This document shows positions 2,244-28,807 of a stretch of 56,841 nt of DNA, one piece after another. A program made the position numbers and the translations under genes. The DNA comes from a virus. Numbering within the stretch: the first letter of the stretch is position 1; each line of letters opens with the position of its first letter. The stretch lies in the IMG/VR virus record IMGVR_UViG_3300046455_000283, positions 1 to 56,841 of that record; one strand, given 5' to 3'. The notes beneath the pieces are model-generated. The model worked only from the letters and a program-made list of their open reading frames with translations, was not told the DNA's origin and searched no databases.

Positions 2244-3451
2244 GTTACTACGACGATCATAAGCTGTTCGATGACCACGTCCCATATGACCCTGGTGCTG
2301 GAGCAGCTCCGAAGTATATTGCCGAGGACTTAGAGACAGATAAACTTCGGTATCTCTTCTACGGTCTTCTGGATAATCGGATCCTTGCCGAGCTTCCTAT
2401 TTCTAAGCCTCGTTTTGCTTCGAAGTTCAAGGATAGCGGAAACTTCAGCGGAGCAGTTATCCTGGGTGACGAGCGCCTGGCGAAGCTCGATGTTCTTGGA
2501 GCAACAATTCCTGAGCGCACTGCAGTCTTCATCGACTTCGGTGGTCAATTGGTGTGGGGTGGGATTATCTGGGGTCGAACTTATAACTCAGATACTAAAG
2601 AGTTAGGTCTCAGTGCTGATGAGTTCGGGTCTTTCTACGAGCGGATGTACATCGACACAAACCGAGTCTATACTAATGTCGATCAGATGGATATTGCTCG
2701 GGGGATTGTCATTGATGTCCAGCAAGATAAGGGCAAGGCTGCTGACATTGGAGTAATCGACAATGGCGAAACTTCTACTCGTACTCGTAAGCGGACCTAC
2801 CACAACTATGACTTCAAGCAAGTCTGGTCAGCTCTGAAGCAACTGTCAAATGTCCGAGATGGGTTTGACTTTAGTTTCGATGTCCGGTGGGGGGTCTTCA
2901 ATCAGCCTGAGAAAGTACTGAGTCTTCACTACCCCTTCCGAGGTCAAACCGGTGATGAGACTAACCTGTTGTTTGACTTTCCCGGAAATATTTCTAAGTA
3001 CGAGTTTCCAGAGGATTCTTCAGACAATGCTATGAAGACCACTGCAATCGGGTCAGGAGAAGGACCAGCTCAGATCACAGCGACTGCGATTAACCAGGCC
3101 TACATCAGTGCCGGTTACCCCCAAACTGAGACCACCTACTCCTACAAGGATATCATTGAACAGGATACCTTGCAAGGCCATGCCTTTGCTGACCTGGATC
3201 ATGTCTCAGACCGCTTTGAAGATCTGAAGATTACAGTGCCTCTCTTAGGTGACCCTCGCTTCGGAACTTATATCACTGGGGATGAAGCTCTAGTTCGTAT
3301 TGTTGATGAGCGATTCCCTCAAGGGTTACTTGGAGCAGACGGTAACCCCCTCTCGGAATCAGGAGATGCGTTTATGAGGATCATGGGTTGGGAAGTAGAT
3401 CCAACTGCTAACCAAGTAACCATCGAGTTGGCGTCGCCGGTGGTCCGATGA
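2240..3451 (+). CDS. Minor tail / tail hub protein
   Basis: A 403-residue protein starting at TTG that overlaps the preceding stop. Its beta-rich sequence, with 'FIDFGGQLVWGGIIWGR' near the N-terminus and 'DGFDFSFDVRW' mid-protein, resembles the hub or minor-tail proteins that actinophages place after the distal tail protein. It has no signal peptide and no membrane segment. The 4-nt overlaps on both sides point to translational coupling within the late operon. The family call rests on sequence style and position, so 'hub' is an inference. Confidence 0.6.
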   Translation: MSYYDDHKLFDDHVPYDPGAGAAPKYIAEDLETDKLRYLFYGLLDNRILAELPISKPRFASKFKDSGNFSGAVILGDERLAKLDVLGATIPERTAVFIDFGGQLVWGGIIWGRTYNSDTKELGLSADEFGSFYERMYIDTNRVYTNVDQMDIARGIVIDVQQDKGKAADIGVIDNGETSTRTRKRTYHNYDFKQVWSALKQLSNVRDGFDFSFDVRWGVFNQPEKVLSLHYPFRGQTGDETNLLFDFPGNISKYEFPEDSSDNAMKTTAIGSGEGPAQITATAINQAYISAGYPQTETTYSYKDIIEQDTLQGHAFADLDHVSDRFEDLKITVPLLGDPRFGTYITGDEALVRIVDERFPQGLLGADGNPLSESGDAFMRIMGWEVDPTANQVTIELASPVVR

Positions 3452-3903
3452 CTAATCTCCACAACGACCTTGAAGAACTCTTCGACCGAGTACGTACCCT
3501 CGAGACTACCAGGCGTCTTGGTTCGGTTGACGATAGTGGACTTGCGTTTACAACTGCCTTACTTCTTGACACCGTTGATCAAGTTCACACTGGGACCAAC
3601 ATTACGGTTGGAGTAACCTCGATCGTTGATCCTGCCGAGTCCTTCTTGACTTATGGGTTTGTTGGTGTGGATACGAGTATCGCTGTTCACACCATCACGG
3701 TGCCTTTGATCGCCAATCTAACACGAGCTACTCGTTTAACTGTCAAGGACATCACAGGGAATGCCTCGACTTTCAATATCACCGTTGCCCCCACCGGAGG
3801 TGACACGATCGATGGTTCGGTAAGTAGACTCATATCTACTAACCGGGGTTATGTGACCATCGTACCAAGGCTTGGTCAAAGTGACTGGGCTGTTATCAGT
3901 TAG
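3448..3903 (+). CDS. Minor tail protein
   Basis: A 151-residue protein whose start overlaps the hub stop by 4 nt. Residues 1-25 form an acidic amphipathic helix (DLEELFDRVRTLETT) that could trimerise; the rest is beta-rich with repeated short Thr/Val strands. This shape, a short coiled coil followed by a beta tip, is usual for small tail-tip or fibre proteins of actinophages. No enzyme motif is visible. Confidence 0.5.
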   Translation: MTNLHNDLEELFDRVRTLETTRRLGSVDDSGLAFTTALLLDTVDQVHTGTNITVGVTSIVDPAESFLTYGFVGVDTSIAVHTITVPLIANLTRATRLTVKDITGNASTFNITVAPTGGDTIDGSVSRLISTNRGYVTIVPRLGQSDWAVIS

Positions 3904-3910
3904 GAGTAAC

Positions 3911-4216
3911 ATGGATATTCCCGTGACGCTTCTGGCCGTGACCCTGGTCTACGGCATTGTGAAGTGGCTGAATGAGATCATCAACATCCCATCTCAGCTG
4001 AAGATTCCGCTTGCCGTGGTGATCAGCATTGGGAGTTTGTTCCTGATGCAGGCAACCGACTGGTCAGCTCAGCAAGAGTTCTTCGGCCGCAATCTCGACA
4101 CCATGAACAACGGCAGTGTAGTCGTCGCTGCCATCATTCTTGCGTTCGGTGCGGTGGGTTTGGACACCGTTTTCAAGACGGTCCGCAATGTCGGGGAGAA
4201 CGATCCCACGACTTGA
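3911..4216 (+). CDS. Holin-like membrane protein
   Basis: A 101-residue protein with a good ribosome site (GGAGT, 4 nt before ATG). It has about three hydrophobic segments (roughly residues 3-18, 28-46 and 68-88) and a hydrophilic C-terminus ending in NDPTT. It is the last rightward late gene, just before the convergent terminators. Size, topology and position fit a phage holin. The endolysin is far upstream in the same operon, and other small membrane proteins lie beside it, so which one is the functional holin is open. Confidence 0.6.
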   Translation: MDIPVTLLAVTLVYGIVKWLNEIINIPSQLKIPLAVVISIGSLFLMQATDWSAQQEFFGRNLDTMNNGSVVVAAIILAFGAVGLDTVFKTVRNVGENDPTT

Positions 4217-4220
4217 TCGG

Positions 4221-4307
4221 AGCTGGGGCTAAAAAACTTCAGCTCGGTCCCAGCTACAACAATCGCCCGTACCTGGAGAAATTGCTCATCATCTCTGGGT
4301 ACGGGCG
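4221..4307. terminator. Paired inverted repeats between convergent operons
   Basis: Two inverted repeats sit where the rightward late genes meet the leftward early genes. The first pairs AGCTGGG with CCCAGCT around an A-rich loop. The second is a perfect 10-bp repeat, CGCCCGTACC with GGTACGGGCG, around a 24-nt loop. Neither has a classic T-tract. Placement suggests a bidirectional terminator. Confidence 0.5.
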
Positions 4308-4423
4308 GTGTTGTGTGTCGATCGCAATGATCATGCATCGAGCGCAAAGGTTAAAGCGAGAGCGTTCCTATTGCGTCCCTAATCGACGGGATGACTCGAT
4401 GCGATATTTCGATCAATCATGCA

Positions 4424-4723
4424 TTACATGCCGAGCAGGGAATCGATCGTAGTTAACAGCGAAAGGGCTTGCGGAACTGAATAAGCCACGATCACCTTCC
4501 CTCCGGCTGCGTCGATCTGCTCGTGCACGAACTCTTGACGAGGGGACACCCTACCTCCAGGCATCTTAGTTTCCACACCAATGAAGTACCCTCGGTAGCA
4601 ACCGGCGATGTCGGGGAGTCCAGCCATCATGTGTGAGTTGCCATGATTCTTCCACACAAACGCACCACGAGCCCTCAGTGCATCCATGATCTTGCGAGAA
4701 AGCTTAGCTTCCGCCTGAGCCAT
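4424..4723 (-). CDS. VRR-NUC-type endonuclease
   Basis: A 99-residue PD-(D/E)XK nuclease of the VRR-NUC type. GLPD (D38) and ETK (E51, K53) form the catalytic core, followed by 'SPRQ' and an AAGG turn typical of the family. The ATG is preferred over an upstream GTG because a purine-rich site (GAAGAAG) lies just before it. The family acts on structured DNA such as Holliday junctions or flaps. It is the last gene of the SSB operon and overlaps the preceding gene by 20 nt. Confidence 0.8.
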   Translation of the reverse strand: MAQAEAKLSRKIMDALRARGAFVWKNHGNSHMMAGLPDIAGCYRGYFIGVETKMPGGRVSPRQEFVHEQIDAAGGKVIVAYSVPQALSLLTTIDSLLGM

Positions 4724-18972: not shown

Positions 18973-19269
18973 TTATCGCTGCCCGTTCCTAACCTTTAAA
19001 CCGGCCTTCTTTCGAAGAATCCGGCGTCGGTCGCGTTCACTCATGGCACCCCACACCCCATACTCTTGCTTGGTCTCGAGGGCGTACTTTCCGCACTCCA
19101 GGACTACCGAACATTGTTCACAGACGGCCAATGCCCGATCTAACTCTGAGACATTGCTTGGATGCATTACCTTAACATCGACCACCTTCCGACAATGGGC
19201 GTGTGCCCACCAAGCTGGACGTACTGAAGGTTCAGTCATCCAATAGGAGGGAAAGGTTCGAGCGGTCAT
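18973..19269 (-). CDS. WhiB-like Fe-S transcription factor
   Basis: A 98-residue WhiB-family protein: four cysteines C26, C50, C53, C59 in the C-Xn-CxxC-x5-C layout for a 4Fe-4S cluster, the GVWGA turn at 71-75, and a basic C-terminus (RRRILRKKAG). WhiB proteins are confined to Actinobacteria and their phages, where they bind the principal sigma factor and redirect transcription. This is the main evidence for the host group. ATGA overlap with the gene before it. Confidence 0.85.
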   Translation of the reverse strand: MTARTFPSYWMTEPSVRPAWWAHAHCRKVVDVKVMHPSNVSELDRALAVCEQCSVVLECGKYALETKQEYGVWGAMSERDRRRILRKKAGLKVRNGQR

Positions 19270-26030: not shown

Positions 26031-26148
26031 CGCGCTGACACGCGCTGGCTGAAACGCCACCGAGCTCGGTGTCCGGCGGCCGGTCGGAGCTGCCATGAGA
26101 GCTGCAACGTTCGGTCCCCACCTCGTTCCCGTCCCCATTCCACGCAAA

Positions 26149-26261
26149 TGTCCGATTTGTCCGGGGAACGGAGTCGATTGTCCGCTTTCTGACGAAATGT
26201 CCGATTTGTCCGAGTCGCTCCAAAATGTCCGATTTCTGTGTGACACACACGCATTTGTCCG
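26149..26261 (+). repeat. Array of TGTCCG words
   Basis: Seven TGTCCG copies in 113 bp, most inside (A/T)TGTCCGATTT, with two more close variants just downstream. The 318 bases from 26031 to 26348 hold no supported gene. Such spaced words usually mark binding sites of one protein, for example an origin or repressor array. Confidence 0.55.
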
Positions 26262-26348
26262 ATTTGCGGATTGGTGGTGGCGAATTGTCCCGACACGTCC
26301 GAATTGCCCCCGTAGGGGCGAATTCGGGGTCGATGGGCGATTTAGGCG

Positions 26349-26618
26349 TTATGCATGGATTTGATCGTCAATGCAGATTCGATAATCGCATCGGTGAATT
26401 GGGCAAATTTCGTAATTGAGGCAGAGATCGGCGATTTGCGCAGCATCGCAGGTTTTGAGCAATTTGAGCAATTCGGCGTATTCGGGCAATTGATCGGATT
26501 CGGGTGCATCGAGCATTTCGAGCAGTTCGAGCATTTCGAGCGGATCATTCGTTTCGAGCGATTCGGCAAAAATGCGATGGATTTGGGTGATTTGGGGTGA
26601 TTGCATCGTTTGATTCAT
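26349..26618 (-). CDS. Leaderless leftward gene in the G-restricted block
   Basis: An 89-residue acidic helical protein with Leu/Glu-rich repeats ('ESLETNDPLEMLELLEMLD', 'PEYAELLKLLK') and Cys in the last third. It contains no Gly, Val or Trp. ATG lies 6 nt after TATGAT with no ribosome site. Divergent from the regulator at 26735 and sharing its control region. Function unknown; a partner or antagonist of that regulator is a guess. Confidence 0.6.
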   Translation of the reverse strand: MNQTMQSPQITQIHRIFAESLETNDPLEMLELLEMLDAPESDQLPEYAELLKLLKTCDAAQIADLCLNYEICPIHRCDYRICIDDQIHA

Positions 26619-26624
26619 GCATGA

Positions 26625-26653
26625 ATCATATCATGCGGGGGGCGATTATGCAA
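26625..26653 (-). promoter_or_regulatory. Left half of symmetric divergent promoter
   Basis: On the minus strand: TTGCAT, 17 nt, TATGAT, 6 nt, ATG. Element for element the mirror of the rightward promoter. Confidence 0.75.
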
Positions 26654-26668
26654 TGCCGCAAAAGGGAT

Positions 26669-26734: not shown

Positions 26735-27079
26735 ATGATCATTTCGGGGAATTCGCAATCGCGCATTTCGCATGATCATGGAATTCGGGCAAATCGCCCA
26801 ATTCGCTCAATCACGAAGGATGATGCCGTTATCGCTCAATCACGCACGCCGAAGGATATTGCGCTCGAATGGGGCACCGACGCAAAAACGCTCAGGAAAT
26901 TCTTGCGCAAGGATATTAAGGATAAAGGCCTCGAATCGCCCGGAAAGGGGCAACGCTGGGCAATTGATGCGCGATCGCTCAAATCCTTGCAAAAGCGATT
27001 TGACGCATGGAATGCGGCAAAAGCGATCAAAACTGATGATTCGCCCGAAACGATCGAATCGACCGAATCACCCGAATAA
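26735..27079 (+). CDS. HTH-like regulator, paralogue 3 (leaderless)
   Basis: A 114-residue protein. From residue ~38 it matches its paralogues ('TPKDIALEWGTDAKTLRKFLRK', 'PGKGQRWAIDA', 'LKSLQKRFDAW'). The first ~36 residues are not shared and include a segment (K-D-D-A-V-I) encoded where the paralogue at 25338 has its ribosome site and start, so the extension looks like a translated former leader. Only one Val codon and few Gly: even this constrained gene shows reduced GT. Probable local regulator. Confidence 0.65.
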   Translation: MIISGNSQSRISHDHGIRANRPIRSITKDDAVIAQSRTPKDIALEWGTDAKTLRKFLRKDIKDKGLESPGKGQRWAIDARSLKSLQKRFDAWNAAKAIKTDDSPETIESTESPE

Positions 27080-27116: not shown

Positions 27117-27619
27117 CAGGTGGAATCACGAGAAAATCGGACAATTGCGTGCGACCTCCGCAAAGCCGACGGAAACGGGCAACTGCTCCCAACTCCGACG
27201 GAATCGCTCAAAGCCGACGAAATCGCCCAAACGCTCTCAAGTCCGACGAAATCGGACAAAGCCACAAACGCCCGCTCAAATCGGACATTGCGTGGAGAAG
27301 GTGCACAAGGCCGACGAAATCGACGCAAGGCCGCCCAAAGCGGACAACTTGCCAACCAAACGAACAATTCGGACAAGTCACCAACCAAACGCACAATTCG
27401 GGCAACTGCGGACCACCTCGCCCAACCTTCCCAACCTGCCCTCCTACCGACCAAATGGGATCCTCACGCACAAGGCTGGACAATTCGGACATGCGGGTCG
27501 AGGGCAAGCACTTTGTCGTGCCTTGTCCGAATTCGTCGTGAGGTGGCGAAATGTCCCTTTTGTCCGAGTCGCACGCAATTGTGCGTGAGGAGGCATTATG
27601 CGGAATTCGATGAAATACC
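27117..27619 (+). repeat. Spacer with degenerate 19-bp tandem repeats and TCGGACA words
   Basis: From 27160 to 27276 a unit like CAANKCCGACGRAATCGSN recurs with 19-bp steps (27190, 27209, 27238, 27257). Scattered TCGGACA words (reverse complement of the TGTCCGA in the array upstream) follow, and TGTCCGAGTCGC recurs near 27560 as near 26207. Several overlapping frames are open through here because stop triplets are rare, but none has a promoter or ribosome site that sets it apart. I call no gene. Confidence 0.5.
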
Positions 27620-27648
27620 TTGACTTCGCCCACCTCGCATGATATGAT
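27620..27648 (+). promoter_or_regulatory. Leaderless promoter of the first G-restricted rightward gene
   Basis: TTGACT, 17 nt, TATGAT, 6 nt, ATG. Confidence 0.75.
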
Positions 27649-27654
27649 GCATGC

Positions 27655-28050
27655 ATGACCTCAACCGATGCGCCTTTCATCCTGCAAATCACCCAAATCC
27701 CTGCAATTGATACCCTCCTCACCGCAATCAAACCTAATCGCCCCTCATTCGCCCTTGACGCCTACATTTCCACATGCCGCCTATATGACATCGACCCCTT
27801 CGATGCCGCCGACCTTGACGACAATCCCCATATCATCCGCGCACGCAATTCGCTCTTTTCCCTCGACCATACCGAATATGCTCCTTACGACTATTATACC
27901 GATTCCTGCCTCGACGAATTGACCTTAATCCTCGATTGCGACCGATACTCCGACAACGATGAATTCGCCCTCCAACACCGAATCATCGAATTCTGCTACG
28001 ATTCGAACGATTACGACCTTGCCGATCAATTGACCTCCTTAATCCCCTAA
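27655..28050 (+). CDS. 131-aa protein lacking Gly, Val and Trp
   Basis: An acidic protein, rich in Asp, Leu, Tyr and Ser, with one Lys and no internal Met. The gene has no GG, AG or GT dinucleotide, including across codon boundaries. It is leaderless and coupled (TAATG) to the next small gene. The regular 'DxxDLxD'-type helices suggest a folded helical protein. No family recognised. Confidence 0.6.
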   Translation: MTSTDAPFILQITQIPAIDTLLTAIKPNRPSFALDAYISTCRLYDIDPFDAADLDDNPHIIRARNSLFSLDHTEYAPYDYYTDSCLDELTLILDCDRYSDNDEFALQHRIIEFCYDSNDYDLADQLTSLIP

Positions 28051-28190
28051 TGCGACCAATGACCCGAATCCTCGACCTCGCCTACGATTCGCCCATCGCC
28101 CACCACGATGCCCTAATCGCCCTACTCCACCTAATCGCCCATCGCCATGCCCGACCCAATTGCCCGACTTGCGATGCCCTCGCCCGATGA
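28050..28190 (+). CDS. 46-aa CPTC protein, no Gly, Val or Trp
   Basis: Starts within the preceding stop (TAATG). A His/Leu-rich helix (residues 18-34) followed by CPTC, a possible half zinc site. Same dinucleotide restriction as its neighbours. Depends on coupling, since no ribosome site exists. Confidence 0.5.
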   Translation: MRPMTRILDLAYDSPIAHHDALIALLHLIAHRHARPNCPTCDALAR

Positions 28191-28193
28191 CCT

Positions 28194-28207
28194 CCCCCCC
28201 CCCCCCC
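28194..28207. repeat. Homopolymer of 14 C
   Basis: An uninterrupted C14 between the 46-aa gene and the next promoter. It is prone to length change in replication and sequencing; a C8 run occurs at 28641. Confidence 0.9.
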
Positions 28208-28245
28208 ACCTGCCCATGACCTCGACCATATCATCCTCACCTGCC

Positions 28246-28274
28246 TTGACCTCGATGACCTCGCATGATATGAT
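28246..28274 (+). promoter_or_regulatory. Leaderless promoter of the membrane-anchored gene
   Basis: TTGACC, 17 nt, TATGAT, 6 nt, ATG. Confidence 0.75.
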
Positions 28275-28280
28275 CATGCC

Positions 28281-28610
28281 ATGACCTATTCACCCCGCAC
28301 CATAATCGCCCTATTCGCCATCACCTGCCTGACCATCCTCACCATGACCTCAATGATCCTCAATCGCCCTACCTCGCACCATGCGCACCATGCACCCACA
28401 TCGCCCATATCCTCACATTGCGCTGAAGATGCCCTTGCCCTGACAATTCACCCATCACGCACATATGCCTGCATACCTGCCGATGACTTCGCCCCCAATA
28501 CCCGCCTTGCCTTCGCCTCTGCCTCAATCCTCCGCTTTTGCCCGACCCACACCGCCCAAATCACCATCGACTCCGATGATGCCGAAATCCTGACCAATTG
28601 CTCACGCTGA
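28281..28610 (+). CDS. Membrane-anchored 109-aa protein, no Gly, Val, Trp or Lys
   Basis: Residues 8-27 form one membrane segment ('IIALFAITCLTILTMTSMIL'); the rest is polar with a His-rich stretch and Cys residues that could form disulphides outside the cell. The gene has no GG or GT and a single AG. A surface protein exposed after infection, for example for exclusion, is one option; no homologue is recognised. Confidence 0.55.
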   Translation: MTYSPRTIIALFAITCLTILTMTSMILNRPTSHHAHHAPTSPISSHCAEDALALTIHPSRTYACIPADDFAPNTRLAFASASILRFCPTHTAQITIDSDDAEILTNCSR

Positions 28611-28807
28611 CCTAATCGCTCACGAACCATACCCAACCAACCCCCCCCACCCATACCGACACGAAGCGGACATTTTCCGCCCCGGACGGCTCTTCCGTCG
28701 AAGTGTTTGAACTTTTCCCAGACTCCATCCCTGTATGCCCCCTGAAAATCCGGGTTTTCCGGGTACCCCACACAATTCAACCTGCAGTACGAGACGGAAC
28801 AAGATCA
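28611..28807. other. Spacer with hairpins
   Basis: No supported gene. Contains GCGGA...TCCGC and GACGG-ctctt-CCGTC inverted repeats that may end the upstream transcript. The G restriction ends here at 28665. Confidence 0.35.

Follow-up and report, generated by a model that had tools for sequence, protein, structure and literature searches.

The window analysed here is the whole stretch of 56,841 nucleotides of viral DNA from IMG/VR record IMGVR_UViG_3300046455_000283. Its terminase shares 57 percent identity with that of Curtobacterium phage Shrew and 56 percent with those of Microbacterium phages Huwbert and Triscuit, and a WhiB transcription factor gene at 18973-19269 (Pfam E 2.7e-16) indicates an actinobacterial host. 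On the minus strand lies a leaderless gene (26349-26618) for an acidic 89-aa protein (pI 4.2) of a family with the motif CPxHxxD(Y/I)xxCxDD. A promoter matching the pattern TTGCAT, 17-bp spacer, TATGAT, 6 nt, ATG precedes it (26619-26653, minus strand), and a predicted terminator hairpin of the form CCCC-loop-GGGG, with a paired G run (pairing probability close to 1.0), follows it (26306-26319, minus strand).

This unit coincides with a block (26311-26656) that a sequence-only reading had described as free of CC, CT and AC on the plus strand. A direct count gave zero for each, and the 346 bp form the exact maximal run; read on the minus strand, which is the coding strand of the 89-aa gene that the same reading had placed there (ORF 26618-26349, inside the block), GG, AG and GT are all absent. 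We refer to this absence as the rule and to the three words as banned dinucleotides. When the block was shuffled 20,000 times, the mean number of banned dinucleotides was 39.4 (sd 4.3) and the minimum 23, and recoding the 89-aa protein with the codon usage of the phage gave a mean of 28 and a minimum of 16, against none observed. When all 560 dinucleotide triples were scanned, the two longest triple-free runs in the window were an 825-bp run lacking AG, GG and GT (27603-28427) and the run lacking AC, CC and CT at 26311-26656, while none of 40 Markov-1 simulated windows contained a triple-free run longer than 126 bp. The shuffles and simulations rule out a chance origin for the 346-bp block. 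Large ordinary genes of the window have coding-strand observed/expected ratios for banned words of 0.94-1.02.

The 825-bp run is on the plus strand and resumes for 238 bp after a single AG at 28427, so that the second rule block spans 27603-28665. It contains a promoter (TTGACT-17-TATGAT, 27620-27648, by pattern match) 6 nt 5' of the ATG at 27655, a leaderless gene for an acidic 131-aa protein (27655-28050, pI 4.1), and a gene for a 46-aa protein with a CPTC motif (28050-28190), which is translationally coupled via a TAATG overlap. Another promoter found in the same way (TTGACC-17-TATGAT, 28246-28274) lies 6 nt 5' of the ATG at 28281, the start of a leaderless gene for a 109-aa protein with a hydrophobic N-terminus (28281-28610), whose one violation is the AG at 28427. 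Searches found no phage relatives of three rule proteins, and no direct relative of the 131-aa protein was found in viral contigs.

The rule recurs in related phages and follows gene direction

We gathered contigs of relatives via terminase and primase. The rule was found in at least 10 related phages, in the region 3' of the primase, where the DNA itself shows no similarity. Its presence in Shrew, an isolated phage, and in independent metagenome contigs excludes an assembly artefact. Among 18,108 ORFs (those in overlapping loci were counted more than once), 44 had a ratio of banned words to expectation below 0.05 and one had a ratio of 0.05-0.1, so that rule genes form an isolated near-zero class. 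A rule-like run in L188 (12418-12875) was set aside as an ordinary TTGCAG-type tandem repeat.

The sequence-only reading had claimed that the rule flips when gene direction flips, and this holds both in the window and in the relatives. For 10 of 12 strict leaderless genes, observed/expected ratios are 0-0.04 on the coding strand and 0.69-1.03 on the template strand; the exceptions are two Shrew genes, which obey on both strands. Apart from Shrew, the two-strand symmetry that restriction-site avoidance would produce is thus lacking. Within 2 kb of L164, rule blocks lie on the minus, plus, plus and minus strands over genes that are themselves minus, plus, plus and minus, which excludes a replication-strand effect. 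The broader proposal, that the constraint is tied to the transcript rather than to the duplex or to replication, is supported by these 10 genes and by the L164 flips, with two caveats: the two-stranded Shrew genes and a two-strand depletion in a paralogous gene of the window (see below). On balance, the constraint very probably acts on the mRNA or on its synthesis.

The rule starts at the predicted transcript start and ends at the predicted terminator

To locate the edges, we aligned 17 rule genes from 10 phages by start (ATG) and stop codon. Per 255 nt, banned dinucleotides number 28, 11, 18 and 19 in successive intervals from -60 to 0, and 2, 1, 0, 1, 0, 0, 0, 1, 0 and 1 from 0 to 150. There are none in the last 60 nt 5' of the stop, 8 in the first 15 nt 3' of it and 52 in the next 15. 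Most rule genes have a -10 box (TATGAT or similar) 6 bases 5' of the ATG, so that transcription is predicted to start (+1) on the A of the ATG itself. Banned words persist to the base adjoining it, as in AAGGc|ATG in L086 and AAAGGT|ATG in L092, and several rule genes have promoter regions that are poor in them too.

At the other end, in nearly all hairpin-bearing cases, the 89-aa gene among them, the rule is first broken within the 3' arm of a C-rich/G-rich predicted terminator hairpin. The Gs of these arms are predicted to be paired, and terminator function would also account for their presence. Shrew and L086 end in rule-compliant alternating hairpins, and the first break in Shrew (GTGTGT) lies 3' of the hairpin. 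The edges therefore match predicted transcript ends, a correspondence that the sequence-only reading had put forward for checking: at the ATG, 19 banned words per 255 nt give way to 2, and they reappear with the terminator stem. The extent of the rule is the outline of an mRNA, as drawn by its predicted ends. Terminator-like CCCC-UUCG-GGGG stems, often without a U tract, occur in both rule and non-rule units of the relatives.

Compliance is graded among leaderless genes and overrides protein sequence

Since exclusion of AG and GG forbids a Shine-Dalgarno (SD) site, rule genes must be leaderless or stop-start coupled. A ratio of banned words to expectation under 0.2 is seen in 14 of the 238 leaderless-type genes and in 0 of 1,285 SD-led genes, none of which is below 0.41. 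Compliance among the 238 genes with leaderless promoters spans zero to normal, with a median of 0.85. In partly compliant leaderless genes, GT occurs at 0.20, AG at 0.39 and GG at 0.48 of the SD-led rate. By the same measure, the best-surviving trimers are GGG (0.88), AGG (0.57), GAG (0.55) and GGA (0.54), and the most thoroughly removed are GTA (0.12), CAG (0.13), GGT (0.16) and AGC (0.20), together with GTG and AGT. GA is enriched about 2-fold in strict genes. Read as the fingerprint of a selecting agent, this order would predict a specificity for RG and GK that is most pronounced for GU and for AG flanked by pyrimidines.

In strict genes, banned words are absent in all three codon phases, which points to action at the nucleotide level and not to a codon effect. 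Amino-acid sequence yields to the rule: 18 rule proteins contain no Gly, no Val and one Trp. Fifteen of them have a pI of about 4.1-4.4. The family of the 89-aa protein separates protein from transcript. Its six leaderless single-gene members obey (0-3 violations), whereas four members that have SD sites or lie in operons (Huwbert gp7, L231, L232 and L233) show normal numbers of violations. The protein is therefore not the cause, and the constraint is tied to the kind of transcript. No family of window genes confined to rule-bearing phages was found, and a search of bacterial genomes found no members of the CPxHxxD(Y/I)xxCxDD family. The AlphaFold model (pLDDT 81) of a family member in L152, a protein of 133 aa, is helical throughout; fold comparison gave no PDB match at E<=0.001 and none in BFVD. 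The barstar family is absent among the Pfam hits, and no structural or family match was found that ties rule proteins to RNase inhibitors.

Two-strand depletion in Shrew and around several rule blocks

The rule block of Shrew (L137, PQ868981) spans 2713-4464, with a copy at 66223-67974, and lies in the last 1.8 kb of a 4,512-bp terminal repeat. About 1.7 kb of this repeat, genes 8-10 included, lacks 6 of the 16 dinucleotides over most of its length on both strands, and every G/C run in the block alternates C and G, with T before and A after. The two-strand obedience of Shrew needs either antisense RNA or a second, DNA-level constraint; for the former, a leftward antisense RNA from about position 4450 is predicted.

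Around several rule blocks there is a weaker depletion of AG, CT, GT and AC on both strands that spares GG and CC and includes non-coding DNA. In the window, it partially affects the third copy of a phrog_21603 HTH-type gene (26735-27079, plus strand), at about two-fold on both strands. Copies of this gene near the genome end show the same pattern, with GG and CC little changed, in L223 (3405-3623) and L139 (3388-3606) as well, and the other copies in the window are normal. A second constraint, on the DNA close to the end of the genome, may lie behind the two-strand depletion, the Shrew block and the promoters poor in banned words.

Discussion

The phenomenon is well supported, and what we offer for its cause is a hypothesis. 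We consider an RNA-degrading or RNA-modifying activity the leading candidate for the selecting agent, at somewhat short of an even chance. Such an agent, an endoribonuclease or a CmdT-like RNA-modifying toxin, would read single-stranded RNA and disable messages containing RG or GK words, as we infer from the pattern, and would come from host defence or from a phage-driven shut-off. The phage would then keep a few small, mostly acidic proteins on immune messages, and these proteins might inhibit the agent or other defences. More tentatively, the whole may be read jointly: RG/GK-free "uncuttable" messages would be expressed while all other mRNAs are disabled by an activity that is specific for G dinucleotides, destroys or modifies RNA and belongs to host defence or to phage shut-off, and the small acidic products of the uncuttable messages would counter that activity or other defences. 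Most genes of the rule-bearing phages, including some leaderless ones, ignore the rule, and this explanation therefore has to suppose a special time or condition. We know of no enzyme of RG/GK specificity and found no candidate for one in the phage.

By analogy, precedents exist for each step of an RNA-agent mechanism. ACA-free messages survive MazF (PMC12123629), and in single-protein production, which exploits this, a message stripped of the word of an RNase survives, as we propose here; that system is engineered, concerns one trinucleotide and operates in Escherichia coli, whereas the rule is natural, concerns three dinucleotides and occurs in phage. As in MazF-evading messages, defined short words (GG, AG and GT) are wholly absent, here from the predicted +1 to the terminator stem. 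The mRNA ADP-ribosyltransferase of the CmdTAC defence is anti-phage and reads one dinucleotide, GA, which CmdT modifies in single-stranded and not in double-stranded RNA (PMC11618068). GA is allowed in rule genes and is enriched rather than depleted, which rejects avoidance of the CmdTAC target itself. Toxins of Actinobacteria cleave the anti-SD of 16S rRNA (PMC12620021), a cleavage under which leaderless messages would be favoured.

The most viable alternative places the constraint in transcription: a T4 Alc-style factor of phage or host would stop or arrest RNA polymerase at RG/GK words in the nascent RNA or the non-template strand, and rule units would be built for read-through. The strand, start and end of the rule fit transcribed DNA equally well, and the G run of the 3' arm is where polymerase should stop anyway. 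However, the terminal hairpins of several rule units, of alternating CG or of AT, comply with the rule, most phage genes are transcribed despite their banned words, and no such factor was found. We regard this explanation as plausible but unlikely. Less probable still is a DNA-level constraint close to the end of the genome, linked to entry, resection or terminal-repeat packaging, to which exposed single strands or the duplex would be subject. It would suit the Shrew block, with its place in the terminal repeat and its two-strand obedience, and the weaker, partly non-coding depletion around several blocks. Against it stand the coding-strand restriction in 10 of 12 strict leaderless genes, the reversals of the rule with gene direction over distances of hundreds of bases, the stops at predicted transcript ends, and the rule genes of L164, L134, L152, L161 and L174, which lie away from any recognised end motif.

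That leaderless messages avoid SD-like sequence to prevent internal ribosome binding is improbable. The rule does track leaderless genes, and GGAGGU contains GG, AG and GU; however, the order of depletion contradicts this idea, since homopurine words should go first and SD-like trimers show the weakest depletion among the banned words, and no SD site arises from GU alone. Context-dependent mutation, by a deaminase or one-strand damage, would explain strand asymmetry and regional restriction and is very improbable, for the composition of the coding strands shifted towards C (41 percent in the plus block) and not A/T, ORFs, promoters and compliant terminators are preserved, and the near-zero class of ORFs is isolated. 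A restriction on codons, tRNAs or amino acids (Gly, Val, Trp, NAG and AGN codons excluded) can be virtually dismissed: those residues and codons are absent or nearly so, but banned words are missing just as completely from the codon 3-1 junction and from untranslated 3' parts, and the phase analysis refutes it. Avoidance of CRISPR PAMs is argued against by the reasoning that DNA targeting is not specific to the strand of the transcript.

Restriction-site avoidance mostly concerns palindromic DNA sites and acts genome-wide. The rule shares with it the purging of short words from phage sequence and differs in being strand-specific and in ending with the predicted transcript. The -10 box 6 nt 5' of the ATG is shared with the leaderless mRNAs of Actinobacteria, and most leaderless genes in these phages have near-normal numbers of banned dinucleotides, unlike rule genes. 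Avoidance of CpG and UpA in eukaryotic RNA viruses and cytoplasmic RNA (PMC3829696) is likewise dinucleotide selection at the RNA level, and is a statistical depletion, whereas exclusion from rule transcripts is near-absolute. We found no earlier description of such exclusion in the openly licensed literature searched. Selection on dinucleotides in viruses usually amounts to a statistical bias; in these soil phages, three of them are almost absolutely removed from whole natural messages, and the removal overrides protein sequence and recurs in diverged relatives. This implies a strong, previously unrecognised selective agent in actinobacterial cells that would read RNA two letters at a time, and the isolated pair of Shrew and Curtobacterium makes the idea directly testable.

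Several non-coding elements were seen alongside the rule units. In the window, TTGTCCGA/TCGGACAA arrays at 26070-26260 and 27137-27566 flank the units and are mostly inverted around them; TGTCCG occurs 16 times in these two flanks versus 22 times in the remaining window. Such arrays, which are possible operators, were also seen in intergenic regions of L229. A palindrome near GAATGCYRGCATTC recurs between transcription units in the intergenic regions of L134, L152, L164, L174, L092 and L137. Finally, a conserved end motif (CACCTCTGTGAGC, CCACGTAC) is directly preceded by a pair of non-coding blocks, the first TATAGGGG-rich and the second CCCC-rich, as at 20588-21041 in L166, 20368-20836 in L160 and 3950-4413 in L137, and each block obeys the rule on its C-rich strand.
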